This document shows, piece after piece, positions 30,407 through 47,916 of a DNA stretch of 64,000 nucleotides. The stretch is from positions 58,882 through 122,881 of the forward strand of contig CADBGN010000004.1 in assembly GCA_902794155.1 (NCBI GenBank), in the 5' to 3' direction. Position 1 is the stretch's first letter. Each line of letters begins with the position of its first letter. A program made the position numbers and the translations under genes. The notes beneath the pieces are model-generated. The model worked only from the letters and a program-made list of their open reading frames with translations, was not told the DNA's origin and made no database searches. This DNA comes from an uncultured Bacteroidia bacterium (lineage in GTDB: Bacteria; Bacteroidota; Bacteroidia; Bacteroidales; F082).

Positions 30407-31486
30407 ATGGGGTACAAAGAAAAGTTTGAAGAAAAGCTGTTTGACTTTTGTCGGTGGACACATAAAGTGTCTGGGATGAAAAAAAGAATAAATGACTTCA
30501 AGAAAAAACCTTTTTCTAATGCCTTGACAAAAGAACAAGAAAAAGAAGTATTGTCATTCTATCAACCATACGCCAAACCTTCTTTGGTTTTTCATCGCTA
30601 TTTTACTGGTGTTTCCGGTGTTTTTCACGCTTCATACATTCCACAGGATTTGTATGTCGGATATATTGATCCCTATTTTAATGATATTCTTGCCGCGAAG
30701 TTTTACGACAATAAAACCAATTATGCCGCATTGTTTTACGGTATTCCTCAACCGAAGACCTTGCTTAAAAGGGTGAATGGCATTTGGATGGACGGTGATA
30801 ACCTTCCACTCTATGATGGCAATGATTTAAAGAAAGGCCTTCGCTTGTCTATTGATAAAGGTTGTTTTGTCAAAGAAGCTCAGAACACTTCGGGTGGCAG
30901 TGGGGTTACCTATATTCCACAAGGTCAGTTTTCTATGCAAAAAGTGTTGGACATTGCCAAAAAGTACAAAACAGACATTATTGTCCAGGAAGAGTTGATT
31001 CAACATGAGGATATGGCTCGCCTTCATGCGAGTTCATTGAATACACTTCGCATGTATTCAGTGCTTGGTAAAGATGGCAATGCCACGATTTATTCCGCAG
31101 TGGTTCGTATGGGATCTGGTGACGCAAAGCTTGACAATTATAGTGCAGGAGGATTGACTTGCGGTATTCAACCGAATGGCCATTTGCGCAAATATGGATA
31201 TAATAAGAAATTCGAAAAAATGGAATGTCATCCGACTTCGAAAGTCGTGTTCTCTGAATATGAAATTCCCAATTTCCAAGGTGCAGTTGAGTTGATCAAG
31301 AAGGCGCATCCTATGATTGCCCATTTTCGTTCTATTGCATGGGACATTGCCATTAGGCAAGATGGAGTGCCAGTGTTGATAGAGGCAAATCTCTGCCGTG
31401 GTGGTATTGATTCGCTTCAACTCAACAATGGACCTCTTTATGGTAACGATACAAAGAAAATCCTTGACGAAGTATTTGGTAAGTAA
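30407..31486 (+). CDS. ATP-grasp ligase, sugar-transfer-associated family (1)
   Basis: ATP-grasp ligases form amide bonds via an acyl phosphate. The 359-residue protein has a helical N-terminal part (to about 130) and an ATP-grasp core: KEAQNTSGGSGVTYI (nucleotide loop), IIVQEELIQHEDM (adenine-contact segment), SSLNTLRMYSV, LDNYSAGGLTCGI, and the metal-binding end AWDIAIRQDGVPVLIEANLC. The SxNTxR, DNxxxGG and WDI/IE-N pattern recurs in four other genes here (31558, 44523, 45690, 46813) and matches the Pfam family I know as sugar-transfer-associated ATP-grasp. It opens the AT-rich core of the locus. Substrate unknown; joining an amino acid to a sugar carboxylate is the natural guess. Confidence 0.85.
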   Translation: MGYKEKFEEKLFDFCRWTHKVSGMKKRINDFKKKPFSNALTKEQEKEVLSFYQPYAKPSLVFHRYFTGVSGVFHASYIPQDLYVGYIDPYFNDILAAKFYDNKTNYAALFYGIPQPKTLLKRVNGIWMDGDNLPLYDGNDLKKGLRLSIDKGCFVKEAQNTSGGSGVTYIPQGQFSMQKVLDIAKKYKTDIIVQEELIQHEDMARLHASSLNTLRMYSVLGKDGNATIYSAVVRMGSGDAKLDNYSAGGLTCGIQPNGHLRKYGYNKKFEKMECHPTSKVVFSEYEIPNFQGAVELIKKAHPMIAHFRSIAWDIAIRQDGVPVLIEANLCRGGIDSLQLNNGPLYGNDTKKILDEVFGK

Positions 31487-31557
31487 CATAAAATTGCTTA
31501 TCTACTAAACAAATAACAATTCTTATAATTAGTAAACATTTTAAAACTATATCCATT

Positions 31558-32739
31558 ATGACTGATTATGATGTTTTATTAGAAAAGATTCGTGCACTTG
31601 GCATGGACTATCGTTGGGCTGGTATGTTTGTGAAAAAGCTCAGAGATGATGAAAATGCATTTCCTGTTGCTGATGTAGAAAAACAACGTTGGGCTTTAGA
31701 ACGTGGCTTCTATCCTGGACGTATTGAGTTATATGGACTTACAGAGGAGAATTATCGTGATTATGTTCCGGATTTTCAATATTTCATGTTGCATCCGATG
31801 AACAATCATTTTCTGAAATGGCTTGATAAGACCACGTTGAAATATGTGCTGAACAGTAATGGTTGCGAGGATACAATGCCGGCCTATTACGTTTATGTCG
31901 AAAATGACTTGTGTGGTGGCCGTTTTACCTATTTGATGGATTGCCCTACGGATATTCCCAAAGATAAGGATTTCTTGTGGAATTTGCTTCAGAAAAAACG
32001 TATCCTTGCCATGAAGCCCAATTCAGGGACAAGTGGTGGTTTGGGCTTCATTAAGATGGAACTGCGCGATGATGGAATTTATGAAAACAACAAACCAATC
32101 GATATGGCGCGTTTTGAGGAAATCAGGGATACAATGCGTAATTATATCATTACTGAATACTGTCATCAACATCATGAATTGGCGGCAGTTTGGCCAGATA
32201 GTGAGTGTACATTGCGAGTAATCATGTGTAAGAATCATACCGAAGACCGTTATGCGCTTACTTCATGGTCATGTGCAGTGTCCTATGCCCGTTTTGGAAC
32301 TTCTATCAATGGTGGGGCAAGCAATCTGTCTTCAGGTGGTGTCGGAGTGGGATTTGATTTTGAAACAGGTAAATACAAAGATTTCTGTATCCGTTACAAG
32401 CGCTTTACACCTGATGGGAAATGGTTACTTGATAAGCATCCTGATACGGGAATCGTCTGGAAAGATAATGGGCTTCCCAATTGGTCATTGGTGCGTGACA
32501 AGATTAACGCATTATGTCAACACGTTTCTTCTTTGGATTATATGGGACTTGACATCATCATCACCGAAGACGGGATGAAACTTTGTGAGATTAATTCACA
32601 TCCCGCCATTGACTATGAACAGGTGATGTGTGGACCCGTGTTGAAAAACGAGAAAGTAAGAGCTTTCTTTGAACATAAAGGTATTTCCAAGTGGGATGGA
32701 AACTTGTTTTGCCAGGCATATCTTGAAAGCCAAAAGTGA
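31558..32739 (+). CDS. ATP-grasp ligase, sugar-transfer-associated family (2, divergent)
   Basis: The 393-residue protein has a variant core: ILAMKPNSGTSGGLGFIKM, YIITEYCHQHHEL, DSECTLRVIMCKNH (for the SxNTxR motif), GGASNLSSGGVGVGFD and GLDIIITEDGMKLCEINSHPAIDY (metal ligands Glu/Asn). It is more distant from the other four than they are from each other. The N-terminal 120 residues (YRWAGMFVKKLRDDENAFPVADVEKQ) are its own. It lies directly before the initiating sugar transferase. That placement, ligase next to phosphoglycosyl transferase, is the association that gives the Pfam family its name. Confidence 0.8.
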   Translation: MTDYDVLLEKIRALGMDYRWAGMFVKKLRDDENAFPVADVEKQRWALERGFYPGRIELYGLTEENYRDYVPDFQYFMLHPMNNHFLKWLDKTTLKYVLNSNGCEDTMPAYYVYVENDLCGGRFTYLMDCPTDIPKDKDFLWNLLQKKRILAMKPNSGTSGGLGFIKMELRDDGIYENNKPIDMARFEEIRDTMRNYIITEYCHQHHELAAVWPDSECTLRVIMCKNHTEDRYALTSWSCAVSYARFGTSINGGASNLSSGGVGVGFDFETGKYKDFCIRYKRFTPDGKWLLDKHPDTGIVWKDNGLPNWSLVRDKINALCQHVSSLDYMGLDIIITEDGMKLCEINSHPAIDYEQVMCGPVLKNEKVRAFFEHKGISKWDGNLFCQAYLESQK

Positions 32740-32766
32740 TTTGCAACCGATGGATTAACACTGATT

Positions 32767-33363
32767 ATGTATAAGCATTTCTTTAAAAGAGTATTGGATT
32801 TCTTGATTTCTTTGATTGCAATTATCTGTCTCAGTCCGTTTCTCTTAGTGATGATTGTTTGGCTCCATTTTGCCAATAAAGGGGCGGGAGTGTTTTTCTT
32901 GCAGGACCGTCCCGGGAAAGATGCAAAGCTTTTTAACGTGATTAAGTTCAAGAGCATGACGGATGAAACGGATGAGAATGGCGTTCCTTTACCCAATGAT
33001 CAACGCATTACAAAGATTGGGAAGTTTATGCGCAAGTTCTCAATTGACGAATTGCCGCAACTCTTCAATGTATTGAAGGGTGATATGTCGTTGATAGGGC
33101 CTCGGCCTTTGTTAACAAGGTATTTGCTACTTTATACCCCTGAACAAGCCAGACGGCACGAAGTACGTCCTGGTCTTACGGGTTGGGCTCAAGTTCATGG
33201 TAGGAATAATATAACGTGGAAGGAGAAATTTGAATTGGATCTTTGGTATGTTGACCACTGTACTCTGTGGACGGATATCAAAGTTGTTTTTATGACTGTC
33301 AAAAACGTTCTGTCGGGAAAAGATGTGAGTGTTGTAAGTGGTAGTTTCGATGGGACCAATTAA
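32767..33363 (+). CDS. Initiating phosphoglycosyl transferase (PglC/WcaJ bacterial sugar transferase family)
   Basis: This enzyme moves a sugar-1-phosphate from a nucleotide sugar to undecaprenyl phosphate, starting the lipid-linked repeat unit at the inner membrane. The 198-residue monotopic form has one N-terminal hydrophobic re-entrant segment (FLISLIAIICLSPFLLVMIV), FFLQDRPGKDAKLFNVIKFKSM (read in parts), the catalytic Asp-Glu pair in FSIDELPQLFNVLKGDMSLIGPRPL (read in parts) and RPGLTGWAQVHGRN. It is full length for the short PglC type. It is the only enzyme in the locus that would put a first sugar on the carrier lipid. Confidence 0.95.
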   Translation: MYKHFFKRVLDFLISLIAIICLSPFLLVMIVWLHFANKGAGVFFLQDRPGKDAKLFNVIKFKSMTDETDENGVPLPNDQRITKIGKFMRKFSIDELPQLFNVLKGDMSLIGPRPLLTRYLLLYTPEQARRHEVRPGLTGWAQVHGRNNITWKEKFELDLWYVDHCTLWTDIKVVFMTVKNVLSGKDVSVVSGSFDGTN

Positions 33364-33378
33364 ATGAGGTTATAAGTT

Positions 33379-34641
33379 ATGAAGAGTGATAGACATGTAT
33401 TAATGCAGTATGGAAGTGAAAACACAACTTTTGGGGATAAAATTTGTGCTTTAGTTCTTGCATTGGCGCCTATTTTGCAACATTATAAAGGTATTATAGA
33501 AAATGCGGGTTTTACGGTGCTGATTCTCATCACTCCTATATTGTTTTTGCGTACGTTTAAGAAGTTGGATTCTGGCGTTGTTGAACGAAAGAGCTTTTTT
33601 GCTATCATTCCGCTTATTATATTTTATTTTTATACGATTCTTATTCGTGATTTCAATTTCATGCGATTGGGTTACGTATTGTTGCTTTCTTGGATTTTTA
33701 TATGTGTCTCAAATGGTAGCATCAACATTTCTTATTTTTTTAAGTGTGCAACAAAGATTGCAATATTGGCGACAATAGCCATTATCATCCAATTTGTTTC
33801 ACACAATGTGTTGAATTGGACCATTGATTTTCGCCCCTTATCTTTGTTGACTACCCAAGAGAATATCTGGGTCAGAACTTCGGTAAATTATGGTGCGGTT
33901 GGTTATTTATATCGTCCTTCAGGCTTTTTTCTAGAGCCTTCTCATTTCTTTTTATACTCGTTTCCAATCATAACCGTGTTATTGCTCTCGGTTGATAGGG
34001 ACAAAAAGGATTTTCGAACAGCTTTGTTTATATCTTTGGGATTGCTGTTGACTACTTCGGGAATGGGAATAGTTGTACTAGCAGGATTATGGACACTTTA
34101 TTTTTTGATTTATAAAAGAATTGAAGATTATTCGATTTCTAGTTTTACCAAACAGATTAGTGTTAGAAGTGTTGTAATAGTATTGTTATTGGTTGTCGTT
34201 TTTTATTTTGCATATCGTGGAATTCCCTTTATTCAAAATGCTGTTAATAGAATTCTTACAGATGATGAGACTTCGAATGCTATTGAAGGAAGAACCCGTC
34301 TTGTGGAAAACTTTGTTAAAGGCATTACGGGAAAGGCTGTTTGGTTTGGAACGCCCAATGCCATGGCTGATATTGATTTTAATGTTCCTGGTTTCTTTGC
34401 TACATATATTAAATATGGCATTTTAGGATTGTTATTTTCCTATTGGTTTTATCTTCAAGGTGTGTTCAAACTTAAAGGTCCGTATTTTTGGCTCACACTT
34501 ATTATAGTGGTTATTTCTTATTTTACGGCACATACGCATGGGACGTTTTATATGCTTTACTTTGTGCTATTCCTGATGAATGGGTATTATGAAAGGGGTA
34601 GTGGTCGAATAATGGAATCTGACATTATTGAAGAAGACTAA
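33379..34641 (+). CDS. Wzy-like O-antigen / capsule polymerase
   Basis: The 420-residue protein has about ten to twelve hydrophobic segments. A larger polar loop near the middle (residues about 140-190; RPLSLLTTQENIWVRTSVNYG, RPSGFFLEPSHFFLYSF) is followed later by a second loop (DDETSNAIEGRTRLVENFV). The layout and the RPSGFFxEPS motif are typical of Wzy and O-antigen ligase proteins, which polymerise lipid-linked repeat units at the periplasmic face. Sequence is poorly conserved in this family, so the call rests on topology, the motif and context beside the initiating transferase and flippase. The gene is markedly AT-rich. Confidence 0.82.
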   Translation: MKSDRHVLMQYGSENTTFGDKICALVLALAPILQHYKGIIENAGFTVLILITPILFLRTFKKLDSGVVERKSFFAIIPLIIFYFYTILIRDFNFMRLGYVLLLSWIFICVSNGSINISYFFKCATKIAILATIAIIIQFVSHNVLNWTIDFRPLSLLTTQENIWVRTSVNYGAVGYLYRPSGFFLEPSHFFLYSFPIITVLLLSVDRDKKDFRTALFISLGLLLTTSGMGIVVLAGLWTLYFLIYKRIEDYSISSFTKQISVRSVVIVLLLVVVFYFAYRGIPFIQNAVNRILTDDETSNAIEGRTRLVENFVKGITGKAVWFGTPNAMADIDFNVPGFFATYIKYGILGLLFSYWFYLQGVFKLKGPYFWLTLIIVVISYFTAHTHGTFYMLYFVLFLMNGYYERGSGRIMESDIIEED

Positions 34642-34685: not shown

Positions 34686-35276
34686 ATGAAGGATTTCAAA
34701 AGGTTGTATTATTCAGCGCGCTCATGCTTAATTCTTAGTTCTAATAAGCGTACTGATTTTTTTCGTAAAAAACACGTTTTCGGTCTCTTGGGAGAGAAGT
34801 GTAATATTCAAGATCGCAAACTTCCTCTTTATCCTAATCTCATATATTTACACAATAATGTTCGCATTGCTGCAGGTGTGATGTTTCTTACCCATGATGG
34901 TATACATAGAATGCTTAACAATAGTCATTTGGACGAAGGTGGGTATATGGAACGAATGGATTGTATTGAAGTGATGGATAATGTGTTCATTGGAACAGGA
35001 ACACATATTTTGTATGGGGTTAGAATTGGTACAAATGTGATTATTGGCACGGGTAGTTTGGTGAACAAGGATATTCCTGATAACTCAGTGTATGCAGGTG
35101 TACCCGCACGGTATATTTGCAGTTTTGACGAATATATGCAAAAGGCAAGAAAATATTCCGAACTATTTAAAAACAAATATGGAATCACCAAGTTTTCTGG
35201 GGGGGTAATAGATGATAAGTTTGCAGCCTCTCTCTATGAAGATTTTTGTAAGAAAAGACAATCTGGTAATAAATGA
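34686..35276 (+). CDS. Hexapeptide-repeat O/N-acetyltransferase
   Basis: Left-handed beta-helix turns are visible at about residues 50-140 (NNVRIAAGVMFLTHDG with its catalytic-type His, MDNVFIGTGTHILYGVRIGTNVIIGTGSLVNKDIPDNSVYAGVPARYI, read in parts). This is the pattern of the maltose acetyltransferase/CatB/NodL group, which transfers acetyl groups from acetyl-CoA. It could O-acetylate the polymer, or act as the WbpD-type N-acetyltransferase after the WbpB-like and aminotransferase steps. The C-terminal helical tail is about 45 residues. Its stop overlaps the next start by 4 bases (ATGA). Confidence 0.88.
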   Translation: MKDFKRLYYSARSCLILSSNKRTDFFRKKHVFGLLGEKCNIQDRKLPLYPNLIYLHNNVRIAAGVMFLTHDGIHRMLNNSHLDEGGYMERMDCIEVMDNVFIGTGTHILYGVRIGTNVIIGTGSLVNKDIPDNSVYAGVPARYICSFDEYMQKARKYSELFKNKYGITKFSGGVIDDKFAASLYEDFCKKRQSGNK

Positions 35277-36508
35277 GTTTTATGAAATCATTAGTCATAG
35301 CAGGCGGAGTGCCTCAAATTGAACTTATCAAGCAACTGAAAGCACGTGGCATAGAGACTTTGTTGGCCGACGGCAGTCCCAATGCCGTGGCCAGACCCTA
35401 TTGCGACAAGTTCTATCATGTGGACGTCTTCGATATAGAAGCCATTAAAGATATTGCTGTCACAGAAAAAGTGGATTTCCTCATCACCGTTTGTGCCGAC
35501 CAGGTGCTGCTGGTGGTGGCCAAGGTGTCGGAACTGTTGGGACTACCTTGTTATATCGGTTACGAGACTTGTAAGGATGTGTCAGACAAAATCCGCATGA
35601 AACGCATTTTCAAGGCCAACGGCATCCCGACCACAGACTATGTGGAGACCGATGCGCTTGATATGGAAGTGATAGGCAAGCTGAAATTCCCGTTGGTAGT
35701 GAAACCCGTGGATGCCTATAGCTCCAAGGGAGTGAGAAAGGCGGAAAACCTTGAGGAATTGAAGCAGTATTACGAGGAGGCCCATACCATCAGCCGCAGT
35801 GGAGGCGTAATCGTGGAGGAATTTTTTTCGGGTGAGGAAATCAGCGTGGATGCTTTTGTGGTGAATGGCAAAGCCCATGTATTGAATGTCACCAACAGTG
35901 AAAAAGTGAAAAATAAAGACAGGTTTGTCATTTTCCGAGGCCGCTATCCCGTGAAAGCCTCCGAGGCCGTGTTGAAACAGATCGATGAGATTGCCCAAAA
36001 AATTGCTGACGGCTTTGGCTTGGTGAACGCTCCCTTGTTGATTCAGTTGCTGCATCATGGCGACGAGGTGTCGGTGCTGGAGTTCTGTGCCCGCACGGGG
36101 GGCAATATGAAATACTTGCTTATCAAGTATTCCACTGGAGTAGATGTGATAGGTGCAACCATTGACATTACCCTAGGGACGAATCCCGACTTAAGCAAAA
36201 AATGCAAGAGTTACAACATTGTGGTGAACGATTTCATTTATTGCCAACCAGGTGTTTTCGACCATTTTGTGGGTTTTGAAGAGCTGGAGAAACAGGGACT
36301 GATCAACGAATTCCATCCCGTCAGAATCAAAGGAACGGAAATGCGTGGTGTGACCAGCAGCAGCGACCGCGTTGCAGGCATGAATATCGTAGCAGATTCC
36401 ATAGAGCAATACAACGAGAAACTGCATAAAATCAACGAGACGGTTAAGGTGATTGATGTTGAAGGAAAAGATATCATGCGGCATGACTTGCTACCTGATA
36501 TGATTTGA
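35273..36508 (+). CDS. ATP-grasp ligase, carbamoyl-phosphate-synthase / amino-acid-ligase type
   Basis: This 411-residue ligase differs from the other five. It has an N-terminal pre-ATP-grasp domain (SLVIAGGVPQIELIKQLKARGIETLLADGSP, read in parts), then FPLVVKPVDAYSSKGVRKA, GGVIVEEFFSGEEISVDAFV, and the metal-binding LLHHGDEVSVLEFCARTGGN. That is the biotin-carboxylase/PurK/L-amino-acid-ligase arrangement. Members join a carboxylate to an amine or to another small acceptor. It is translationally coupled to the acetyltransferase gene, so both probably modify the same sugar. GC content is visibly higher than in the genes just before it. An in-frame ATG at 35282 is an alternative start. Confidence 0.85.
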   Translation: MSFMKSLVIAGGVPQIELIKQLKARGIETLLADGSPNAVARPYCDKFYHVDVFDIEAIKDIAVTEKVDFLITVCADQVLLVVAKVSELLGLPCYIGYETCKDVSDKIRMKRIFKANGIPTTDYVETDALDMEVIGKLKFPLVVKPVDAYSSKGVRKAENLEELKQYYEEAHTISRSGGVIVEEFFSGEEISVDAFVVNGKAHVLNVTNSEKVKNKDRFVIFRGRYPVKASEAVLKQIDEIAQKIADGFGLVNAPLLIQLLHHGDEVSVLEFCARTGGNMKYLLIKYSTGVDVIGATIDITLGTNPDLSKKCKSYNIVVNDFIYCQPGVFDHFVGFEELEKQGLINEFHPVRIKGTEMRGVTSSSDRVAGMNIVADSIEQYNEKLHKINETVKVIDVEGKDIMRHDLLPDMI

Positions 36509-36532: not shown

Positions 36533-36877
36533 ATGAATAAAACGAGGAAAAAAGCTATCGCGTTTTCATTTTTGGTGGCAATGTGTGTGTTGCTGTCTGC
36601 CAATGTGTTTGCACAATCTCAGGAAAGGCCTGGTGGACTGTTTGGATATATGTCCAATACATCCACCACTGGCGGTATGATGAATCGTAGCAATGATGTG
36701 GTTGGGAGCAACCTTAATGGTCAAGGTTTTGGGGCTACCGAAGGTAACATTACCGGACAAACTTTCGGCGCACCTTTGGGCAGTGGACTATTTGTTCTGC
36801 TCGTTGCCGGTGCAGGTTATGCGACACTAAGGGCAAAGAAAAAGCAACAACAAAACAGAAAGGAAAACCAGACATGA
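36533..36877 (+). CDS. Small exported protein with C-terminal membrane anchor
   Basis: I do not recognise a family. The 114-residue product has an N-terminal signal (KKAIAFSFLVAMCVLLSANVFAQ), a Gly/Asn/Thr-rich middle (FGYMSNTSTTGGMMNRSND, NGQGFGATEGNITGQTFGAP), and a C-terminal transmembrane helix (GSGLFVLLVAGAGYATLRAK) ending in lysines. The tripartite end looks like a sorting or tail-anchor signal, and the low-complexity middle like a short surface linker. It overlaps the following lipoprotein gene by 4 bases, so the two proteins are made together. Confidence 0.7.
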   Translation: MNKTRKKAIAFSFLVAMCVLLSANVFAQSQERPGGLFGYMSNTSTTGGMMNRSNDVVGSNLNGQGFGATEGNITGQTFGAPLGSGLFVLLVAGAGYATLRAKKKQQQNRKENQT

Positions 36878-38523
36878 AAAAGCTAAGCACAATCATTGCA
36901 TTAATGGCACTGTTGGTGACCATGGCGCAATGCAAGAAGGAAGAGCAGCCCTCGCCGAGCAGTGAGGATAAAGGTGTGGCTATCACACTCAACATCAAGG
37001 GCAACAACGGTTCCCGTATGGATGTGAATACTAGTACTGGCGAAGTCGAATACGAAAATGGCGATGTGGTGTATGTGGCTAGTGGCGGCAAATATGTCGG
37101 CACATTGACCCACAATGGCACTAACTTCGGAGGTACCATCACCGACCCGACCGTGGGTGAGCCGCTTCATTTCTATTTTCTTGGTAATGTGACACCTACT
37201 GAGACACTTACACAGGGAGTCACCACTTCTTGCTCCGTGGTCATCAGTGACCAGACGGAGGAGTTGCCCGTGATAGAGTATGCGCCTTCAAACGAAACCT
37301 ATACCGGAGGCGTGACCGCTTTCACGGCCATGCTGTTGAACAAGTGCGCTTTGGTGAAGTTTGACGTGACCACCTCGTCAAATGCTGCAACTTGCATCAC
37401 AGGAATGAACAACAAGGTGACGGTGAATTTTGCTGAGAACACGCTGACTCCATCACAAGAAGGCACAGGTCTTATCAAGCTTGGTGAAGGTAGTGGCGAG
37501 AGATGGGCCATTTTATTGCCACAAGATGCTGTTGAAGAATGCGACGCTTTTTCTGAGGATGGAGCGTATACTGGCACTTGCGCTTCTATACCTGCCATCA
37601 CGGAGAATGCTTACTTGACAGCAGGCATTGAGGTAAATGTCACCATAGAGGTTAGTGCAATACCTGTTGGTGCCATCAATGGCAAGTTCACCATCAATGC
37701 CAATGGCGACCAAGTGTATTTTTCGCAAGGCAATTTGCAATACATAGGAAGTGCAGCCACCCCCTATTGGAAGTTTGCGGAGAACCAGTGGGATTATTTT
37801 GGAACATCAACTGGGCAAAATAGTAGTGACCCTAATGTTGACCGTGACCTTTTCGGTTTTGGAACAAGTGGTTGGAACAACGGCAATTATTATTACCAAC
37901 CTTACGATACCGATCAAACCAATCTTTGGGAGGAACCTTATGAATATGTTGCTGATGGCTATGGTCCCATTGCAGGGACAGATTACCATTTCGTTTATAG
38001 TTTGACTGGAACCTATGCGAATGCTGATTGGGGTGTTTACAATGCCATTTCCAACGGTGGTAATATGTCTGGCCTTTGGCGTACATTAACCTTTGATGAG
38101 TGGAGTTACTTGTTTTATGACCGTACTACACCGTCGGGTATTCGTTATGCCCATGCGGTGGTGAATGGACATAGTGGCATTGTCCTATTGCCCGACGACT
38201 GGAGTACTTCTGTGTACGAACTGAATGAAACTAATGAATTTGAGGGACAATACAATATCAATACAATTTCTTTGGAGGATTGGGTCAATATGGAGATCAA
38301 CGGAGCAGTATTTTTGCCTGTCGCTGGTAGACGAGAAGGAACTATAGTGCAAGATGTCGGATATGAGGGCAATTATTGGACTTCAACCTGTGATAGTGAG
38401 ATAGCCACGTGCATATTGTTTTGGAATTATGATAGTGAAGAAGATTATGTAGGTCCGTACATTGATCCTGGTTATTGCCATTATGGTTTTTCTGTGCGCT
38501 TGGTACAAGATATTGAACCTTAG
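36874..38523 (+). CDS. Surface lipoprotein, fimbrillin-like N-terminal part with FISUMP-like C-terminal part
   Basis: This 549-residue lipoprotein has a signal peptide ending at a lipobox Cys (LLVTMAQC). Residues about 30-265 have the fimbrillin-like beta-sandwich pattern (NIKGNNGSRMDVNTSTGEVEYENGDVVYV, read in parts), seen in Bacteroidales Mfa/FimA-type pilins and other surface lipoproteins. From about residue 275 (NGKFTINANGDQVYFSQGNLQY) to the C-terminal GFSVRLVQDI it follows a repeat type common in Bacteroidales surface proteins. It is coupled to the small membrane-anchored gene before it. It may be carried inside the locus without a role in polymer synthesis. Confidence 0.75.
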   Translation: MKKLSTIIALMALLVTMAQCKKEEQPSPSSEDKGVAITLNIKGNNGSRMDVNTSTGEVEYENGDVVYVASGGKYVGTLTHNGTNFGGTITDPTVGEPLHFYFLGNVTPTETLTQGVTTSCSVVISDQTEELPVIEYAPSNETYTGGVTAFTAMLLNKCALVKFDVTTSSNAATCITGMNNKVTVNFAENTLTPSQEGTGLIKLGEGSGERWAILLPQDAVEECDAFSEDGAYTGTCASIPAITENAYLTAGIEVNVTIEVSAIPVGAINGKFTINANGDQVYFSQGNLQYIGSAATPYWKFAENQWDYFGTSTGQNSSDPNVDRDLFGFGTSGWNNGNYYYQPYDTDQTNLWEEPYEYVADGYGPIAGTDYHFVYSLTGTYANADWGVYNAISNGGNMSGLWRTLTFDEWSYLFYDRTTPSGIRYAHAVVNGHSGIVLLPDDWSTSVYELNETNEFEGQYNINTISLEDWVNMEINGAVFLPVAGRREGTIVQDVGYEGNYWTSTCDSEIATCILFWNYDSEEDYVGPYIDPGYCHYGFSVRLVQDIEP

Positions 38524-39859: not shown

Positions 39860-39988
39860 AGAATGCGACAGAGACAAGATGTTACAAACAGGCACAGTTG
39901 CGCAAAGCACACTTGTATGCTGACTAATGAAAATCATTAAACTTTTGCACATTAAGAAATAAAAACACTAATTATTAGCTGCAAAAAC

Positions 39989-40777: not shown

Positions 40778-40936
40778 ACTTTCAACTGACTCTAAACTCT
40801 AAACTTTAAATAAACACACGTGACAACAGCTGCTTCTGGCCTCTAGCCTCCAGCTTCTGGCAGCTTACTGAAAAGCTTGAGAGCTTCATTCTATCATTGA
40901 GCAGCCAATAGCCAGTGGCCAGCAGCCAATAGCCAA
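40766..40936 (+). repeat. Family D direct repeats followed by family B palindrome (copy 5)
   Basis: 40766-40812 carries TCTAAACTTTCAACTGACTC-type words that overlap the end of the kinase-like gene. From 40828 the family B left arm (GCTTCTGGCCTCTAGCC, CCAGCTTCTGGCAGC) pairs with the right arm at 40901-40936 (GCAGCCAATAGCC, AGTGGCCAGCAGCC). With the following 66 A/C-rich bases this makes up the gap before the flippase gene; no gene is seen in it. Confidence 0.75.
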
Positions 40937-41002
40937 ATCCATAGTCAAAAAACTCCCATATCAACACAATATATCATCCAATTTTGAACCCCTAACTAAA
41001 TC

Positions 41003-42478
41003 ATGGCAAAAAGCTTAAAACATAAAGCCGCCTCTAGTATGGTGTGGATGGCCGTTCAGAAATACTCGACAATGTTCATTCAGTTCATTTCGGGTATTAT
41101 TTTGGCCCGTCTGCTCACGCCTTACGATTATGGTTGCATAGGTATGTTAGCAATCTTTATGGTGTTGGCGGATGTTGTTATTGATGGCGGTTTTGGATCC
41201 GCATTGATTCAGAAAAAACGACCCACACAAGAAGATTATTCCACTATTTTTTTCTGGAATATGTTTGTGGCAATTGTACTTTATGCGATACTATTTGTAT
41301 CTGCTCCTGCCATTGCACGCTTCTACAACATTCCATTACTTAGCAAAGTTCTTCGGGTGCAGGGTGTGGTTTTGTTTACCTATTCATTTAATATAGTACA
41401 GCATAATCAGTTGAGAAAACAATTGAGGTTTAAAGTGTTGTCTATCATTTCGGTAGTTTCAGCCATTATCTCTTTGGGAGTGACCATAATTATGGCATAT
41501 AAAGGGTTTGGTGTTTGGGCTTTGGTGGCACAACATATTCTTCTTTCTGCTATTCCGTCTGTTGCATATTGGTTTGTTGTTAAGTGGAGACCTATATTGG
41601 TTTTTTCCTGGAATTCATTTAAAGAGTTGTTTGGTTTTGGCTTTTATATGTTCCTAACCAATCTACTTAATCAATTTAGTGGTCAGCTGCAAGGCTTGTT
41701 GATTGGTAAGTTTTATAATGCATCAACCATGGGCTATTATTCCAAGGCACAAAGGACGGAGTCTTTAGCTTCACAAAGCATTTCCACTGTGATGACCCAG
41801 GTGACCTTCCCTTTATATGCCGAAATGCAAGATAATAAAAAGGCAATGGCAAATGCCATTAAAAGAATTACAATGACACTCTCTTATTTTTCTTTTCCTC
41901 TATTGTTTATCTTGTTGTTGTTGGCTAAACCAATGTTCATCCTTCTTTATTCCGAAAGATGGTTGCATAGCGTTCCTTATTTTCAGGTGCTTTGTATAGC
42001 TGGACTTGCGGGCTGTTTGCAAGCGGTGAACCTTCAATCCATCTCTGCTATTGGAAAAAGTAAAACCATGTTTATATGGACTGTAATTAAACGTTGTGTT
42101 GGAATTGGTGCTGTGGTTTTGGGTTTGGTGTTTTTTGGCATGAAAGGATTGTTGGCAGGCGTGGTGTTTAATTATTGGTTCTCTTATTTTATCAATATCA
42201 GTTTGGTATCGAAACACATCGGCTATAAATGGTATCAACAAATCAAGGATCTTCTTCCAGTTGGGCTAGTCTCTTTGGCGATAGCTGCTATTTGTTATGC
42301 TATTGGGTACTTCCTACATCTTGAAATGTACACAGAAGGAGCGATTGTCTTGGCTGTCTATTTGATTCTTTATATTGGATGGTCTGTTGTGTTTAAGCCA
42401 GAAGCGTATAAGTATTTCTTGAGCGTCATACCTAATAAATTTAAGTTTCTTAGAAAAAGAAAACAATCGACAAAATAA
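41003..42478 (+). CDS. Wzx-like lipid-linked oligosaccharide flippase (MOP superfamily, PST family)
   Basis: The 491-residue protein starts SLKHKAASSMVWMAVQKYSTM and has about twelve to fourteen hydrophobic helices, with the family motifs GIILARLLTPYDYGCIGML, VIDGGFGSALIQKKRPTQEDYST (read in parts) and LNQFSGQLQGLLIGKFYNASTMGYYSKAQR (read in parts). PST-type Wzx proteins move undecaprenyl-linked repeat units across the inner membrane. It pairs functionally with the initiating transferase at 32767 and the Wzy-like polymerase at 33379, so the locus follows the Wzx/Wzy route. It is the first gene of the second AT-rich block. Confidence 0.94.
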   Translation: MAKSLKHKAASSMVWMAVQKYSTMFIQFISGIILARLLTPYDYGCIGMLAIFMVLADVVIDGGFGSALIQKKRPTQEDYSTIFFWNMFVAIVLYAILFVSAPAIARFYNIPLLSKVLRVQGVVLFTYSFNIVQHNQLRKQLRFKVLSIISVVSAIISLGVTIIMAYKGFGVWALVAQHILLSAIPSVAYWFVVKWRPILVFSWNSFKELFGFGFYMFLTNLLNQFSGQLQGLLIGKFYNASTMGYYSKAQRTESLASQSISTVMTQVTFPLYAEMQDNKKAMANAIKRITMTLSYFSFPLLFILLLLAKPMFILLYSERWLHSVPYFQVLCIAGLAGCLQAVNLQSISAIGKSKTMFIWTVIKRCVGIGAVVLGLVFFGMKGLLAGVVFNYWFSYFINISLVSKHIGYKWYQQIKDLLPVGLVSLAIAAICYAIGYFLHLEMYTEGAIVLAVYLILYIGWSVVFKPEAYKYFLSVIPNKFKFLRKRKQSTK

Positions 42479-42486
42479 GCAGTTAT

Positions 42487-43281
42487 ATGGTTAAGGTTAT
42501 TTTAAATGCAGATGATTTTGGCAAGAGCGTGGAACGAAATCGTGCCATTGACGATTCTTTTAAGCAAGGTTTGATTTGTTCTGCTGGGTTAATTGTAACT
42601 GGGAAACATCTCAAAGAGGCAGTTGATTATATGAAAAAGGGAGGTTATAGTGAAAAAATCCACGTTCATTTTAATCTATCCACCAATCTGTTACATGAAG
42701 ATTCAGATGACATCCCTTTGACGGAAGCCATGAGAAAAGACCCCACGTTCAGTAAGAACGGGAAATTCATTCCATATAAAGGTTTGCCACGCAATCCAAA
42801 AACTGTTTTTAAGTGGAAATTGGTTTATAATGAATTGGTTGCGCAATACAACAAATTCATTGAAGTGACGGAAGGGAAAGGAGACTACAAGCATGTTGAT
42901 TTCCATCTATGGTATAATCTTTCTTGGCCGTCTTCAATTGCATTGAATAAGTTTACCAGAAAATATAAGATAGAGTCTGTGCGATACATAGGACTACATC
43001 AAAAGGCATTTAAATATAGGTTTTTCCGAGCTCTCAGCAGGAATCCACGTGTAAAACAATTCCCAGCTACTAACATAGATTATTTTCTTGCAAAACAAAA
43101 AACATTAAGTCAAGAAAAGGTGATAGAGTTGTATTGCCATCCCAATTATAAAGAAGACGGAACATTCCTTGATGATAGTCCCTCATATCTGAAACATGAA
43201 CGAAGACCTATGATAGACCAGATTCAAGATTTGAGAGCGACTGGAAATGTTGAGTTCATTTCTTGGGAGGATAAATTTTGA
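42487..43281 (+). CDS. YdjC/ChbG-family carbohydrate deacetylase
   Basis: This family removes N-acetyl groups from chito-oligosaccharides and related molecules (ChbG) or acts on hopanoid-linked sugars (HpnK). The metal-binding N-terminus VILNADDFGKS, the second ligand motif KIHVHFNLSTN, a third motif HVDFHLWYNL, and a final VIELYCHPNY match the family. Length 264 is typical. It starts 8 bases after the flippase stop. If it deacetylates a lipid-linked or nearly finished amino sugar, it would free an amine that an ATP-grasp ligase could acylate. Confidence 0.88.
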   Translation: MVKVILNADDFGKSVERNRAIDDSFKQGLICSAGLIVTGKHLKEAVDYMKKGGYSEKIHVHFNLSTNLLHEDSDDIPLTEAMRKDPTFSKNGKFIPYKGLPRNPKTVFKWKLVYNELVAQYNKFIEVTEGKGDYKHVDFHLWYNLSWPSSIALNKFTRKYKIESVRYIGLHQKAFKYRFFRALSRNPRVKQFPATNIDYFLAKQKTLSQEKVIELYCHPNYKEDGTFLDDSPSYLKHERRPMIDQIQDLRATGNVEFISWEDKF

Positions 43282-43321
43282 ATAAAATAACTAAAAACAC
43301 TTACAGAACAAGCGCTTGAAT

Positions 43322-44422
43322 ATGAGTAATATAAAACTGTTTTTTGCTGGAGATTTCTGTTCCAAGCCGTCCACATCAAAAATCACCATATCAGATGAAT
43401 TGAAAAACTTGATTCAGTCCTGTGATTTGAAAGTGGTGAATTTTGAAGTGCCATTAAAACCTGATGTAAAGCTTACTTCACAAAAGAGGGAACGATTCTT
43501 TCAAAATGATGATGCTCCGGACTTTTTACGCAGTATAGGTTTCAATCTATTCTCACTAGCTAATAATCATGTTTTTGATTGGGGTAATGAAGGCTTCAAA
43601 AAAACAAAAATGGCATTAGGCGATGCCTCGTTTGGTGCCGGTACTTATGAAGAGGCTTACAGGGTTAAAGTTGTAGAGGCGCAAGGGGTAAAAATTGGTT
43701 TCTATGCATTGTCGTTTGCAGCATATACAGGGGTATTTGATGATGTCGCCAAACACGATGGACTTGGGTGCGCCTACATCAATGATTTGCGTGTAAACCA
43801 TGATATCATGGAGGCAAAAAAGAAAGTAGATTATCTCTTTGTTTTGCCGCATGAAGGTATTGAGTATATTAGCATTCCTTTACAAGAAACCATTGCTCGT
43901 TACCGCGATTTCATCGATTATGGTGCGGATGGAGTGATTGCATCCCATCCTCATTGCCCGCAAGGTTGGGAGGAATACAAGGGGAAACCGATATTCTATA
44001 GCCTTGGTAATTTCCTTTTTAACAGTAAGGAAGGTTATGACTTTCGCGCTAATAAACCGCATTGGTATGATGGTTTGTGCCTAGAGATGACCATTACTGA
44101 CGGGATTATTGCCTGTCAAGTAGTGAATACGAAAAATATGGATAATGTTAGAATTGAAATTGACCATGGGGAGGATAGAAACAAACATAATGAACAGTTA
44201 TGTAGATATCTCACTGACAGTGAGGAATACAACCGTTATTTTAATAAAATCAAAGCAAAATTGGGTCGAGTAACTGACGTGAAAGTCATTGAAAGATTTG
44301 TTTTAAAGCATTGGTTTGACAAGATAAGGAGAAAAGAGTTTTCGAGTGAGGATGAGTTGGTCTATTTGATAAAAAACGATCAAAGAAGGAACTTGCTCAT
44401 CCGTTCAATTAGCAGTAAGTAG
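43322..44422 (+). CDS. CapA-family (poly-gamma-glutamate capsule) metallophosphatase-like protein
   Basis: The protein begins IKLFFAGDFC, then NFEVPLKPD, LANNHVFDWGNEGF, FVLPHEGIEYISIP, and GADGVIASHPHCPQGWEEYKGKPIFYSLGNF (read in parts). These are the metal-binding motifs of the CapA/PgsA branch of calcineurin-like phosphoesterases. CapA is needed for poly-gamma-glutamate capsule production in Bacillus, though its enzymatic role is unsettled. No signal peptide or transmembrane helix is visible here, so this form is probably cytoplasmic. Its presence with amide-forming ligases supports a polymer containing amino-acid linkages. The ATG at 43322 is preferred over the TTG at 43316. Confidence 0.88.
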   Translation: MSNIKLFFAGDFCSKPSTSKITISDELKNLIQSCDLKVVNFEVPLKPDVKLTSQKRERFFQNDDAPDFLRSIGFNLFSLANNHVFDWGNEGFKKTKMALGDASFGAGTYEEAYRVKVVEAQGVKIGFYALSFAAYTGVFDDVAKHDGLGCAYINDLRVNHDIMEAKKKVDYLFVLPHEGIEYISIPLQETIARYRDFIDYGADGVIASHPHCPQGWEEYKGKPIFYSLGNFLFNSKEGYDFRANKPHWYDGLCLEMTITDGIIACQVVNTKNMDNVRIEIDHGEDRNKHNEQLCRYLTDSEEYNRYFNKIKAKLGRVTDVKVIERFVLKHWFDKIRRKEFSSEDELVYLIKNDQRRNLLIRSISSK

Positions 44423-44522
44423 TTTTTTTCGAATTATTTGAAGCAAGATGGATTCTAGAGGGCTCTCCATCAAACTTCAATGAGTAATATAATATTTGAA
44501 TATTCCATTAATTTAAATCATC

Positions 44523-45656
44523 ATGAGTTCAGCAATACAAAAAATCTATCAATCGTCTCAAAAAAAGTTGACAATTCGATATCTTGAAAGTTTTTTCGAG
44601 AAAAAGATAAAGAAATCCATGCAATTGTGTCCGATGAAACCTCTTACGAAAGGACAAGAAGCAGAGATTAAGGCGTATTTCAAAAAGCATTTTAATAGGG
44701 ATATTCCTACTTATTGGCATCAGTATTTTTATTCCAGAAATGGATTGTATTCAGAAAAGTACATTCCTGCCAGTATTTATTCTTCAAGTATTATATATAA
44801 TTTGAACAATTACCAGTTCAGTTTAGCGTATGTTGACAAAGGCTTTTATGATACTTTGTTTCCGGATGTCAATAGACCACATACAATCATTAAAAATGTG
44901 AATGGTTTGTATTATGATGATAAAAATCCAATAAGTATAGAGGAAGCAATAGATCGTTGTTCGAATTTAAAAGAAGCGGTTATTAAGCCAACAGTACTTG
45001 GTACTTGGGGAGTGGGAGTAAATCTGTTTCATGCGGAAAAGGGCTTTGTTCCTGAAATGAATATGTCTGTGAATGATTTGTTTTCGCACTATAAAAACAG
45101 CTTTATTGTTCAAAGTAAACTTGAACAACATCCAGATCTCGCAAAACTAAATCCGACTTCTGTCAATACAATTAGAGTAATGTCATACCGAAGAGACAAT
45201 GAAGTGGTCATACTATATGCTGTTATTCGAATTGGTCGTATGGGTAAGGTGGTTGATAATGAAACATCAGGCGGAATAAAGGCTGATATTGATTTGCAGA
45301 CTGGTCGAATCAAAGGTCCAGCGTTTGGAAGTCCAACGGAGAAAAATATGCCTCAAACTGATTCTGGCGCAGTATTGGATAATTATTTAATACCCTCATT
45401 CCCGCAAATACTTGATTTTGTTAAAAGTCTGCATTATAGACTTCCTTATTTCAGACTAATTGGATGGGATATTTCGGTTGATACGAATGGAAAGCCGGTG
45501 ATGATTGAATGGAACAGATCGGCAGAGTTGAGCCAAGTGGCTCATGGACCAGCATTTGGCGATTATACAGAGGAAATTTTGGCCAGAGCTCTTCATGAAA
45601 AAAATACTCGTTTCACTCAATTAAGTGGGAGGAGTCACCCAACTCATGGTATTTAA
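44523..45656 (+). CDS. ATP-grasp ligase, sugar-transfer-associated family (3)
   Basis: 377 residues. A helical N-terminal part includes LTKGQEAEIKAYFKKHF and TYWHQYFYSRNGLYSEKYIPASIY (read in parts). The core has EAVIKPTVLGTWGVGVNLF, FIVQSKLEQHPDLAKLNPTSVNTIRVMSYRR (read in parts), VVDNETSGGIKADI, TDSGAV and IGWDISVDTNGKPVMIEWN. It is clearly a close paralogue of the gene at 46813, sharing the YFYSRxGxYSxxYIP segment and the final AxGPxFGxYTEEI. These two and the gene at 45690 lie in tandem with short gaps, suggesting duplication followed by divergence in substrate. Confidence 0.85.
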   Translation: MSSAIQKIYQSSQKKLTIRYLESFFEKKIKKSMQLCPMKPLTKGQEAEIKAYFKKHFNRDIPTYWHQYFYSRNGLYSEKYIPASIYSSSIIYNLNNYQFSLAYVDKGFYDTLFPDVNRPHTIIKNVNGLYYDDKNPISIEEAIDRCSNLKEAVIKPTVLGTWGVGVNLFHAEKGFVPEMNMSVNDLFSHYKNSFIVQSKLEQHPDLAKLNPTSVNTIRVMSYRRDNEVVILYAVIRIGRMGKVVDNETSGGIKADIDLQTGRIKGPAFGSPTEKNMPQTDSGAVLDNYLIPSFPQILDFVKSLHYRLPYFRLIGWDISVDTNGKPVMIEWNRSAELSQVAHGPAFGDYTEEILARALHEKNTRFTQLSGRSHPTHGI

Positions 45657-45689
45657 TACTACTTTTCAAATCTTCTAAAGCAATAATAA

Positions 45690-46766
45690 ATGGATTTAAA
45701 AACATTTGTATGTAACATTGCCTATTCGCCATTTGGAAACAAATTGGTTTCATTAGTTGGCGGGCAGAGATGGTATGCAGAACTTCATGTGCGTTCTGAA
45801 AAGAAGAAACTACTTGCCAATGCAAAGAAAGAATTTGAAAAAGAATCGGCATTAGGAACGTTTGATGATTATAAAAAGGCGTTGGAGAAACATTGGGTTT
45901 CATATTCTGAATATGCTAACCAATATGAGTTTTACAGAAAGCCAGAAGAGGAAAGAGACGAGTATGTATCAAGATTGAAGATGGCTTATTTTTATTGGAG
46001 GTATGCTCCAGGTGTGGCGAAATCGGTATTCCGAAATAAAACTATGTTTCTTAAAGCCTTTAATAAGTATATTCATAGAAAATGGTTGTATGCTCCAGAG
46101 TCTTCTTTCGAAGATTATGAACAACTGGTTACTAGTTTTGATTGTATTGTTAAGCCTTGTGATGGAAAATTAGGTAAAGGTGTTTTCAAGATTTTTAAAG
46201 ATGCAGATCACAATGACGACAGGAAAGTATATGAGTCTTGTGTGAAAAACAGAATGTTGGTGGAACAATGTATTGTAGCATGTGATGAATTAAAAGCATT
46301 TCATCCCCAAAGCCTAAATACAATTAGAGTTGTTACTATTGCAAATCAAGAAAAAGCCTGCGTTTTCTCTGGAGTGTTTCGGACAGGTGTTGGTGAAAGT
46401 GTAGTTGACAACTCCCACAAAGGTGGTGTGTCGGTGCAAATCAATGTTGAAAATGGTATTGTTGAAACCGACGGCGCTAACACTAGTGGTGAACGGTTTG
46501 TATGTCATCCTGATAGTGGGATTGTTTTCAAAGGGTTTAAAATACCCCAATGGAATGATGTTGTTGCCACTTGTTGTGAGGCAGCCAAACAATCGAGAAA
46601 TCCTATTACTGGTTGGGATGTGGTCGTAAATAATCACGGAGAGGTGGAGTTTATAGAAGCGAATTATGGTCCAGATATGGATATGATGCAGACTCGGTAT
46701 AATGCTGGGGCCAAAAAGAAAATTTTCGGTTTAATTAAAGAGTATTGTGGAATTGAAATGAAATAA
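45690..46766 (+). CDS. ATP-grasp ligase, sugar-transfer-associated family (4)
   Basis: 358 residues. The N-terminal 120 residues are charged and helical (KKKLLANAKKEFEKES) and differ from those of the two flanking paralogues. The core shows CIVKPCDGKLGKGVFKIF, RMLVEQCIVACDELKAFHPQSLNTIRVVTIA (read in parts), GESVVDNSHKGGVSVQI, CHPDSGIVF and TGWDVVVNNHGEVEFIEANYGPDMDMMQ (read in parts). The metal-binding IEAN is followed by the family's Gly-Pro and acidic residues. It starts 33 bases after the preceding gene. The distinct N-terminal domain suggests a different acceptor from its neighbours. Confidence 0.85.
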   Translation: MDLKTFVCNIAYSPFGNKLVSLVGGQRWYAELHVRSEKKKLLANAKKEFEKESALGTFDDYKKALEKHWVSYSEYANQYEFYRKPEEERDEYVSRLKMAYFYWRYAPGVAKSVFRNKTMFLKAFNKYIHRKWLYAPESSFEDYEQLVTSFDCIVKPCDGKLGKGVFKIFKDADHNDDRKVYESCVKNRMLVEQCIVACDELKAFHPQSLNTIRVVTIANQEKACVFSGVFRTGVGESVVDNSHKGGVSVQINVENGIVETDGANTSGERFVCHPDSGIVFKGFKIPQWNDVVATCCEAAKQSRNPITGWDVVVNNHGEVEFIEANYGPDMDMMQTRYNAGAKKKIFGLIKEYCGIEMK

Positions 46767-46812
46767 TTTAATTTATTGATAATCAAATATTAACAAATAA
46801 AACATCATTATT

Positions 46813-47916
46813 ATGGACATTTCAAAAGCAATCTTCAGAAGACTTGATCGGTTTACCAATAAAATGAAAATGAAACATGCTTACAAGCAATCCGATAGGG
46901 TCTTTAAAAATAGCATGAAGAAACTGCCAGCTGAAAAGAAGCTCACCAGTGAACAAAAGAAAGAAATCCAAGAATTCTACAAAGGATTGATTGGGAAAGA
47001 AATTCCATTGTATTCACACGAATATTTCTATTCCCGTACAGGCATCTATTCAAAGGAATACATTCCAAGAAGCCTTTACTATGTCGAGTTGCAACCCAAA
47101 GCATGCATGGTCCCATATCGTGATGCCTACGCAAATAAAAACATGGCGGAAATTTTGCTACCAGATGTAAAACATGCACATACCATTCTTAAAAGAATGA
47201 ATGGCTATTTTTACTATGAAAACAAGCCCGTCACCAAGGAAGAAGCTATAAAAGCATGTAGTAACCTTAAGAATGCAATCATCAAGCCTGTATTGGAAAG
47301 TAGTGGTAAAGGCGTTCGTGGCCTTGAAGTTACAGATGGAAAGACGAGTGTTGATGGTTTGACAATAGAGCAATTGTTTGATAAATACGGCAATAACTTC
47401 CAAATTCAAGAAAAACTAAAGCAGCATGCCAAAATGAATGAATTGAATGCTACTTCGGTCAATACATTGAGAATTCTTACCTATAGGTCGGGTATGGAAA
47501 TACTGCTCATCTATTCCGTCGTACGTATTGGAAGGCAAGGTCAGGTGATTGATAACCAAAATGCGGGTGGCATGAGTACGATTATCGGTGAAGATGGTAA
47601 GTTGGGTAAATACGCTTTTAGTGGTTACACAGGAGAGAGAGTAGAAAAGACGGATTCAGGAACTGTTTTGGAAGGATTTGAAATTCCCTCATACGCTAAG
47701 GCTATCGAAACGGTGAAACGGCTTCATTATGAATTGCCTTTCTTCAACTTGATTGGTTGGGATATTGCCATTGATGAGGTGGGTGATCCTGTTCTTATCG
47801 AATGGAATTCAAATCCTGGCTTAAGCCAATCGGCATTTGGTCCAGGTTTCGGAAAATACACCGAAAGGATTATTCGTGAGTTGTGGCCAAGAAAGAACAC
47901 AAGATACAATCTCTAG
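46813..47916 (+). CDS. ATP-grasp ligase, sugar-transfer-associated family (5)
   Basis: 367 residues. It resembles the gene at 44523 throughout: KLTSEQKKEIQEFYKGLIGKEIPLYSHEYFYSRTGIYSKEYIP (read in parts), NAIIKPVLESSGKGVRGLEV, FQIQEKLKQHAKMNELNATSVNTLRILTYR (read in parts), VIDNQNAGGMSTII, KTDSGTVLEGFEIPSYAKAIE and IGWDIAIDEVGDPVLIEWNSNPG. The N-terminal helix is lysine-rich and may touch the membrane. It is the last of the AT-rich core; the next gene, 33 bases on, returns to higher GC content. Confidence 0.85.
   Translation: MDISKAIFRRLDRFTNKMKMKHAYKQSDRVFKNSMKKLPAEKKLTSEQKKEIQEFYKGLIGKEIPLYSHEYFYSRTGIYSKEYIPRSLYYVELQPKACMVPYRDAYANKNMAEILLPDVKHAHTILKRMNGYFYYENKPVTKEEAIKACSNLKNAIIKPVLESSGKGVRGLEVTDGKTSVDGLTIEQLFDKYGNNFQIQEKLKQHAKMNELNATSVNTLRILTYRSGMEILLIYSVVRIGRQGQVIDNQNAGGMSTIIGEDGKLGKYAFSGYTGERVEKTDSGTVLEGFEIPSYAKAIETVKRLHYELPFFNLIGWDIAIDEVGDPVLIEWNSNPGLSQSAFGPGFGKYTERIIRELWPRKNTRYNL

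Follow-up and report, generated by a model that had tools for sequence, protein, structure and literature searches.

A probable Wzx/Wzy-type surface-polymer locus in a Bacteroidales genome that combines six ATP-grasp ligase genes with no glycosyltransferase gene detectable by Pfam profiles

A probable locus for a Wzx/Wzy-type surface polymer lies in the 64,000-nucleotide stretch of DNA analyzed here (the window), which comes from an uncultured Bacteroidia bacterium and covers positions 58,882 to 122,881 of contig C4 (122,881 bases) in a 3.28 Mb genome of 205 contigs with an estimated completeness of 88.6%. The core of the locus, at 30.4–56.2 kb of the window, encodes a phosphoglycosyl transferase (PGT), a Wzy-like protein, a Wzx flippase, and six ATP-grasp proteins. 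When the 40 open reading frames from galE (17,046) to fcl (61,695) were scanned with 24,736 Pfam models at E values up to 0.01, no glycosyltransferase (GT) family was found in any of the 40 proteins, weak matches included. An initial inspection of the letters and open reading frames (the sequence-only reading) had reported this absence, and the profile search bears it out. The sole sugar-joining domain among the 40 proteins is the Bac_transf domain (PF02397) encoded at 32,767–33,363. The polymer machinery named in that inspection is confirmed for the PGT and Wzx, but the Wzy-like protein scores below the cut-off of its family, with seven predicted transmembrane (TM) segments. One of the 40 frames, at 29,532–30,128, is spurious; it reads the wrong frame over a conserved gene (29,647–30,222) for a membrane protein of 191 residues, probably PnuC.

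Comparison within the genus reveals a recurrent chromosomal site at which two flanks surround a variable core. One flank, which varies by genome, holds galE, a nucleotidyltransferase gene, rmlB, and genes for a DUF4954 protein, a glucosamine-6-phosphate-isomerase-like protein, and a Gfo-type oxidoreductase, and it continues with UDP-sugar dehydrogenases, a PIG-L-like protein, and a small membrane protein of the 29,647–30,222 type. The opposite flank holds DegT and gmd, and fcl too in several genomes. The right end of the window is the end of the contig, a correction to the earlier account; truncation of the locus by the contig end was rejected because relatives repeat the DegT–gmd right flank. 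Genes for six activated sugars, which had been counted as part of the system, are indeed present, but most lie in the flanks (galE, an rmlA/galU-like gene, rmlB, two UDP-sugar dehydrogenase genes, gmd, and fcl), and flanks of identical type border GT-rich loci in other species. These sugar-nucleotide genes therefore do not specify the polymer. By annotation, the core contains no sugar-nucleotide synthesis gene, with the possible exception of the hexapeptide acyltransferase, and at least seven genes for acid or amino-acid metabolism; the run of genes at 48,938–56,182 serves mostly acid metabolism.

The five proteins first described as sugar-transfer-associated ATP-grasps all score above the PF14397 (ATPgrasp_ST) cut-off of 31.4 bits and are called ligases 1 to 5 here. 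The sixth, encoded at 35,273, is likewise an ATP-grasp protein, but its earlier label, CPSase-type, is loose: ATP-grasp_4 and the D-Ala-D-Ala ligase C-terminus (50.2 bits) match it best, and CPSase_L_D2 is weaker at 25.5 bits. None of the six matches the TupA-like family PF14305 at an E value of 0.01. In an alignment of 62 ATPgrasp_ST proteins drawn from 77, residues K109, K158, R220, D317, E330, and N332 (numbering of ligase 5, encoded at 46,813) are invariant in 62 of 62; across all 77, conservation is complete (100%) for K109, K158, D317, and E330 and reaches 99% for R220 and N332. All five window proteins carry the six residues. We take the conserved lysines and D/E/N residues to be ATP and metal ligands, and their retention makes the five look like working ligases, so that a GT disguised in an ATP-grasp fold was rejected and the earlier suggestion of a transferase-like role not yet described is not supported. 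Against the PDB, the ATPgrasp_ST profile matches tubulin-tyrosine, RimK-type glutamate, and D-Ala-D-Ala ligases at low significance (best E value 2.8e-5). The ATP-grasp proteins are very probably amide ligases of this polymer.

Ligases 1–4 share 19–41% identity with ligase 5. In a phylogenetic tree, ligases 1, 2, and 4 fall into different groups, and ligases 3 and 5 into separate supported groups near one another; each group has members from other species as well. This placement and degree of identity suggest that the five are probably not recent tandem copies, and they may act on different substrates. Relative to G075, a genome of the same genus with the most similar locus seen, strong purifying selection acts on the genes for ligases, PGT, and dehydrogenase: omega is 0.012 for the PGT, 0.026 for ligase 5, and 0.029 for the ATP-grasp at 35,273, the range extending to 0.046 when the saccharopine-dehydrogenase-like enzyme (SacDH) is included. 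For ligases 1 and 2, dN is 0.093 and 0.048, respectively, with dS saturated for both; ligases 3 and 4 were left out of this comparison. A further ATPgrasp_ST gene elsewhere in the window's own genome (L070, 329–982, on G000:C54) is apparently partial or broken, giving two partial hits near a contig end.

A GT of unrecognized fold might also be hidden in the locus, most plausibly in the protein encoded at 47,950 (TIM298) or in another unnamed protein. TIM298 has no match in Pfam, NCBIfam, or the PDB, and divergent GTs can escape sequence searches, as happened when a home-made GT2 profile missed the weak GT2 of the related locus in G174. However, TIM298 homologues in relatives are 94–99% identical even amid strongly differing neighbor genes, and the gene adjoins that of the C–C lyase in six of eight cases outside the window. 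Such conservation beside such a neighbor resembles that of a metabolic enzyme and counts against a hidden GT, as do the retained ligase residues of the ATP-grasps and the other unnamed core proteins, which look secreted by eye. We therefore regard a hidden GT as unlikely.

Table 1. Genes in the core of the locus, in window positions
Feature	Position	Strand	Match and remarks
ATPgrasp_ST ligase 1	30407..31486	+	PF14397 120.1 bits; catalytic residues present; G075 homologue 86% identical
ATPgrasp_ST ligase 2, immediately 5' of PGT	31558..32739	+	PF14397 81.8 bits
Phosphoglycosyl transferase, initiates on lipid carrier	32767..33363	+	Bac_transf PF02397 219 bits
Wzy-like polymerase/ligase, multi-TM	33379..34641	+	PF04932 25.1 bits (cut-off 31.7); 7 hydropathy-predicted TM segments
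Hexapeptide acyltransferase; 4-base overlap with next gene	34686..35276	+	PF00132 37.9 bits
Sixth ATP-grasp (ATP-grasp_4 / L-amino-acid-ligase-like)	35273..36508	+	PF13535 56.1 bits; LAL_C2 below cut-off; 94% in G075
Small secreted/membrane protein, probably cargo	36533..36877	+	No family over cut-off
Secreted lipoprotein-like protein, probably cargo	36874..38523	+	No family over cut-off; lipobox-like start by eye
Saccharopine-dehydrogenase-like (opine-type) enzyme	38651..39859	+	PF05222 78.7 bits
Kinase-PolyVal domain protein, insert	39989..40777	+	PF18762 107.9 bits
Wzx flippase	41003..42478	+	PF13440 308.9 bits
YdjC-like deacetylase	42487..43281	+	PF04794 81.2 bits
CapA-like calcineurin-fold metalloenzyme	43316..44422	+	PF09587 154.7 bits; no membrane/signal segment by hydropathy
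ATPgrasp_ST ligase 3	44523..45656	+	PF14397 140.4 bits
ATPgrasp_ST ligase 4	45690..46766	+	PF14397 163.3 bits
ATPgrasp_ST ligase 5	46813..47916	+	PF14397 127.8 bits; 95% in G075
TIM298, 298 aa, adjoins C–C lyase gene	47950..48846	+	No family match
C–C bond lyase (CitE-like)	48938..50083	+	PF15617 355.4 bits
Aldo/keto reductase	50070..51038	+	PF00248 190.3 bits
MmgE/PrpD family enzyme	51035..52387	+	PF03972 147.4 bits, PF19305 132.6 bits
Phosphonopyruvate-decarboxylase-like TPP enzyme	52392..53519	+	TIGR03297 387 bits (cut-off 312.5)
Probably secreted protein, family not recognized	53523..54830	+	No Pfam match
Class I fumarase/tartrate-dehydratase pair	54838-55344 and 55310-56182	+	PF05683 76.4 bits, PF05681 165.4 bits

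Four other Bacteroidales genomes, G127, G129, G180, and G075, also have such loci in which GT2 and GT4 matches are absent. GTs in relatives were counted mainly with two home-made profiles, seeded with 16 GT2 and 9 GT4 proteins of the window's own genome and iterated. Because these profiles miss divergent GTs, a count of zero is weak evidence, save for the window and these four genomes, for which Pfam models were added. The four genomes give 56 matches to PF00535 and 40 to PF00534, none inside the loci, and no GT family appears among those larger unlabeled proteins of their loci that were scanned against full Pfam. That scan covered two such proteins of G075 and four central ones of G180; the G127/G129 clusters u41, u34, u21, u30, and u71 lay outside it, u41, u34, and u21 being read by eye. 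For these four loci, GT-free thus means free of PF00535 and PF00534, with other GT families covered only in the scanned proteins.

The G075 locus is split over two contigs. There, another ATPgrasp_ST ligase and a TupA-type ATP-grasp (PF14305, 8.4e-42) replace YdjC and ligases 3 and 4. The Wzy-like protein, which has homologues in G075 and G180, is 69% identical between the window and G075, a low value that would fit a changed repeat-unit chemistry. No match to gmd was found in G075 at an E value of 1e-150, and its right flank accordingly differs. G127 and G129 have both flanks, a PGT, Wzx, three ATPgrasp_ST proteins, one to three other ATP-grasps, and two CapA proteins, together with a beta-lactamase-family serine hydrolase and AMP-binding enzymes, and additionally FemAB in G129; their Wzy-like membrane protein has no Pfam match and 8–9 predicted TM segments in its cluster. 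G180 combines a PGT, Wzy, SacDH, Wzx, three ATPgrasp_ST proteins, one further ATP-grasp, and CapA, with a DegT flank at the right. Among 12 stretches delimited by both flanks, 11 contain a PGT, and three of those 11, the window included, have no GT2 or GT4 match. The working label rumen-type (L149–L193) denotes closer homologues, a rumen source not being named for all. Of 41 rumen-type loci covered over about 21 kb each, 15 lack GT2 and GT4 matches, and 11 of these 15 have at least three ATP-grasps.

The arrangement of genes was compared with 1000 permutations of gene order within loci, in a set of 57 loci for which homologues of ligases 3 and 5 were the only basis of selection. CapA adjoins an ATP-grasp gene in 50 of 57 cases (shuffles: mean 23.5, maximum 35), and a saccharopine or opine dehydrogenase adjoins wzx in 23 of 34 (mean 3.4, maximum 12). 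Since L177 and L180 overlap by about 5.5 kb, the count was redone without L180, giving 47/54 (maximum 32) and 23/34 (maximum 10), respectively. In stretches outside the window's own genome, the PGT gene adjoins an ATP-grasp gene in 12 of 21 cases (mean 4.3, maximum 11) and CapA does so in 25 of 31 (maximum 15), while PGT adjoins a GT gene in 5 of 21, no more than in the shuffles (147 of 1000 reach it). The homologues of ligase 2 in G075 (94% identity) and G113 (78%) both have the PGT gene directly downstream. Together, these pairings suggest ligase action at the first lipid-linked sugar, with CapA as the working partner of the ligases, and frequent use of an opine-type building block.

Several results weigh against the absence of GTs from the assembly and against the pairings that accompany it. 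GTs lie beside the same ATP-grasps, within about 21 kb, in 26 of the 41 rumen-type loci. When seven of the 15 GT-free-looking loci were extended, only G180 stayed GT-free; of the other six, four had GT2 or GT4 matches (those of G175 lie beyond a DegT flank-like gene), G174 a weak GT2 match, and G173 DUF354. The last two were rejected as further GT-free loci, the G174 match being over the cut-off and DUF354 being, we presume, kin to GT-B folds. Per locus, the numbers of ATP-grasps and GTs show no significant anticorrelation, either in the delimited stretches (rho −0.36, n = 12, p 0.26; G098, a 7.7 kb stretch without a PGT whose delimitation failed, is included here and set aside in the reading) or in the rumen-type loci (rho −0.05, n = 41, p 0.76). 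Simple numeric replacement of GTs by ATP-grasps was rejected for that reason. The dehydrogenase–wzx pairing is weaker in the stretches outside the window's own genome (SacDH 3/7, maximum 3; opine dehydrogenase 4/7, maximum 4), a set that shares several genomes with the 57-locus set and is not independent of it, and in the window an insert parts the two genes. Finally, the window's own genome and the four relatives all encode GTs elsewhere. Mean GT number is 0.94 in CapA-bearing loci (n = 32) and 2.11 in those without CapA (n = 9), a difference given without a significance test.

These data make an ordinary polysaccharide a serious alternative: GTs encoded elsewhere would build the backbone, and the locus would supply the initiator, the flippase, the polymerase, and amide decorations. 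The genome has 18 GT2 (PF00535) and 9 PF13692 matches, all outside the window (PF00534 was searched in the four relatives only), and seven of the GT2 matches are grouped with one PGT at C1:107–133 kb, in a GT2-rich cluster (C1:107–137 kb) that could provide such enzymes. The four relatives likewise have GT2/GT4 genes. A precedent exists in Campylobacter jejuni, in which a TupA-fold ligase amidates a GT-built backbone (PMC11800379). Many related loci pair one to six GTs with ATP-grasps, some also with CapA. However, GTs normally travel with PGT, Wzx, and Wzy genes, and this locus owns a PGT, Wzx, and a Wzy-like gene; in addition, five genomes would need the same borrowing of GTs, and six distinct ligases are many for decoration. 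We give the ordinary polysaccharide a sizable but clearly minority probability. Assembly of the repeat unit without any GT beyond the PGT and Wzy is plausible in comparison, and we rate it as only somewhat short of an even chance. The proposal that the unit is built by amide bonds fits the ATP-grasps in GT position, their recurrence, the acid and amino-acid enzymes, CapA, and the opine-type dehydrogenase, but the further claim that it is built wholly in this way is unsupported, because most related loci have GTs, the anticorrelation is not significant, and GTs elsewhere could act. The survey proposed by the sequence-only reading did yield GT-free loci in four genomes, though as a minority among related loci.

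The CapA-like protein is homologous to the lasso-peptide epimerase MslH (8gq9), which the CapA family profile matches with an E value of 3.5e-31. All 30 aligned CapA proteins share counterparts of MslH D11, E44, N87, H88, D91, H259, and H295, whereas the position of H261, a metal ligand in MslH (PMC10406935), is Gly; seven of eight MslH residues are matched, and the MslH-type set is incomplete. By hydropathy, 28 of the 30 proteins, the window's included, have no TM segment, a sign that CapA works in the cytoplasm, ahead of the flipping step. The CapA family also differs from MslH in an added invariant His (H211), which presumably brings its site closer to those of phosphoesterases. An epimerase is slightly preferred over a phosphatase such as Cj1435 of C. 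jejuni, because the partner enzyme makes amides.

SacDH matches mitochondrial alpha-aminoadipic semialdehyde synthase in the PDB (E value 2.8e-29) over residues 8–148 of 402 only, and PF05222 spans residues 4–135, again only the N-terminal part. SacDH occurs in 15 loci and an octopine-type dehydrogenase (PF02317, 7.6e-31) in 18, with both in only one locus, so the two look like alternatives. The Kinase-PolyVal protein that parts SacDH from wzx has a 97% identical copy in G117, likewise between an opine dehydrogenase and wzx. In G127, G129, and G075, the same gap holds ATPase-like or HATPase-like genes. The gap (38,651–41,003 in the window; also L099, L097, L089, and L084) looks like an insertion hotspot within the polymer locus. 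In the acid module, the TPP enzyme encoded at 52,392 is a phosphonopyruvate-decarboxylase equivalog by profile; a phosphonate pathway was rejected, since the genome (88.6% complete) has no PEP mutase above the cut-off and one match below it, and the enzyme probably takes another substrate. The protein encoded at 53,523 has counterparts in the corresponding position in G075 (74%) and, by eye, in G180; a peptidase-like Cys motif seen by eye leads us to presume that it is possibly a peptidase. In related loci (L089, L091, L072, L104, and others) there are genes for ketosynthase-III, AMP-binding, acyltransferase, SDR, and transketolase-half proteins, a group that resembles a small pathway making acyl units for the polymer.

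The ligases and their matching acid pathways also resemble a small peptide-type biosynthetic cluster, and the product could instead be non-polymeric, a lipid-linked or secreted peptide–sugar compound such as a one-unit glycolipopeptide, for which no repeat-joining GTs are needed. No Wzy was recognized in the locus of G174, which has six ATPgrasp_ST genes; a probably exported right-handed beta-helix protein is encoded there downstream of the PGT (L209:1554–3050). On the other hand, a Wzy-like protein is encoded in the window, G075, G113, and G180, G127 and G129 each encode a membrane protein that is Wzy-like, and relatives have a hypervariable surface-polymer locus at this site. A non-polymeric product appears quite improbable.

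Our observations of gene content, intact ligase motifs, recurrence, and gene pairings allow us to outline a possible route for a polymer assembled mainly by the ligases; its substrates, the order of its steps, the CapA reaction, and the polymer itself are all what we infer. The PGT would load an N-acylated sugar phosphate onto the lipid carrier, after which the YdjC-like enzyme may expose an amine, or a uronate may supply a carboxylate. The ATP-grasps would then, in the cytoplasm, successively amide-link special acids and amino acids. One added unit may be an opine-type amino acid made by SacDH, and another an organic acid from the C–C lyase/PrpD/decarboxylase/fumarase module. The CapA-like metalloenzyme would modify a newly joined residue by epimerization or dephosphorylation, Wzx would flip the repeat unit, and Wzy would form the single glycosidic bond between units. 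In its fullest and more tentative form, the product would be a sugar–peptide hybrid and a new class of surface polymer: each repeat unit would have a single lipid-linked sugar, and five to six ATP-grasps would form an assembly line for its backbone or a long branch, with CapA partners acting on added residues, so that ligase genes replace GT genes in antigenic shuffling.

Ligases in surface-glycan loci are already known, and what is new is the arrangement without GTs. In the C. jejuni capsule, the TupA-fold ligase domain of Cj1438C amidates glucuronic acid before chain growth (PMC11800379). Like the window, that locus combines an ATP-grasp-fold ligase with a hydrolytic partner (the phosphatase Cj1435); unlike it, that locus has a single ligase domain, PF14305 by its TupA name rather than PF14397, which shares a protein with a GT2, and GTs build the capsule, whereas in the window the six ligases are separate proteins and GTs are absent. 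O-antigens of Proteus and Providencia contain amino acids and opines in amide linkage to sugars, as side groups of the polysaccharide (PMC10609480). Successive ligations by linked peptide ligases were proposed by Iyer, Burroughs, and Aravind for peptidoglycan, teichuronopeptide, and O-antigen synthesis (PMC4431377); the idea is shared, and the relevant passage mentions neither a Wzx/Wzy locus free of GTs nor a pairing with CapA nor an opine dehydrogenase. In the open-licence PubMed Central papers searched, no ligase-bearing, GT-free locus was found; 'ATP-grasp' never occurred with 'Wzx' or 'phosphoglycosyl transferase', and the Pfam family name of PF14397 was not found. The poly-gamma-glutamate capsule is made by PgsB, PgsC, and PgsA, the last being CapA, and thus also places a CapA-type protein beside amide-forming enzymes. 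By contrast, none of the 40 proteins scanned matches the Mur-ligase-like PgsB or PgsC in Pfam, neither a signal nor a membrane segment is predicted for the window's CapA, and the locus has a PGT/Wzx/Wzy set.

If assembly without GTs is correct, peptide-type rather than glycosidic bonds would set coat diversity in some rumen and gut Bacteroidales, and annotation pipelines that seek GTs would overlook such polymers. The ligases would be a source of enzymes for producing sugar–peptide polymers. ATPgrasp_ST, a Pfam family named by association only, and the cytoplasmic CapA proteins would gain a joint, testable function.

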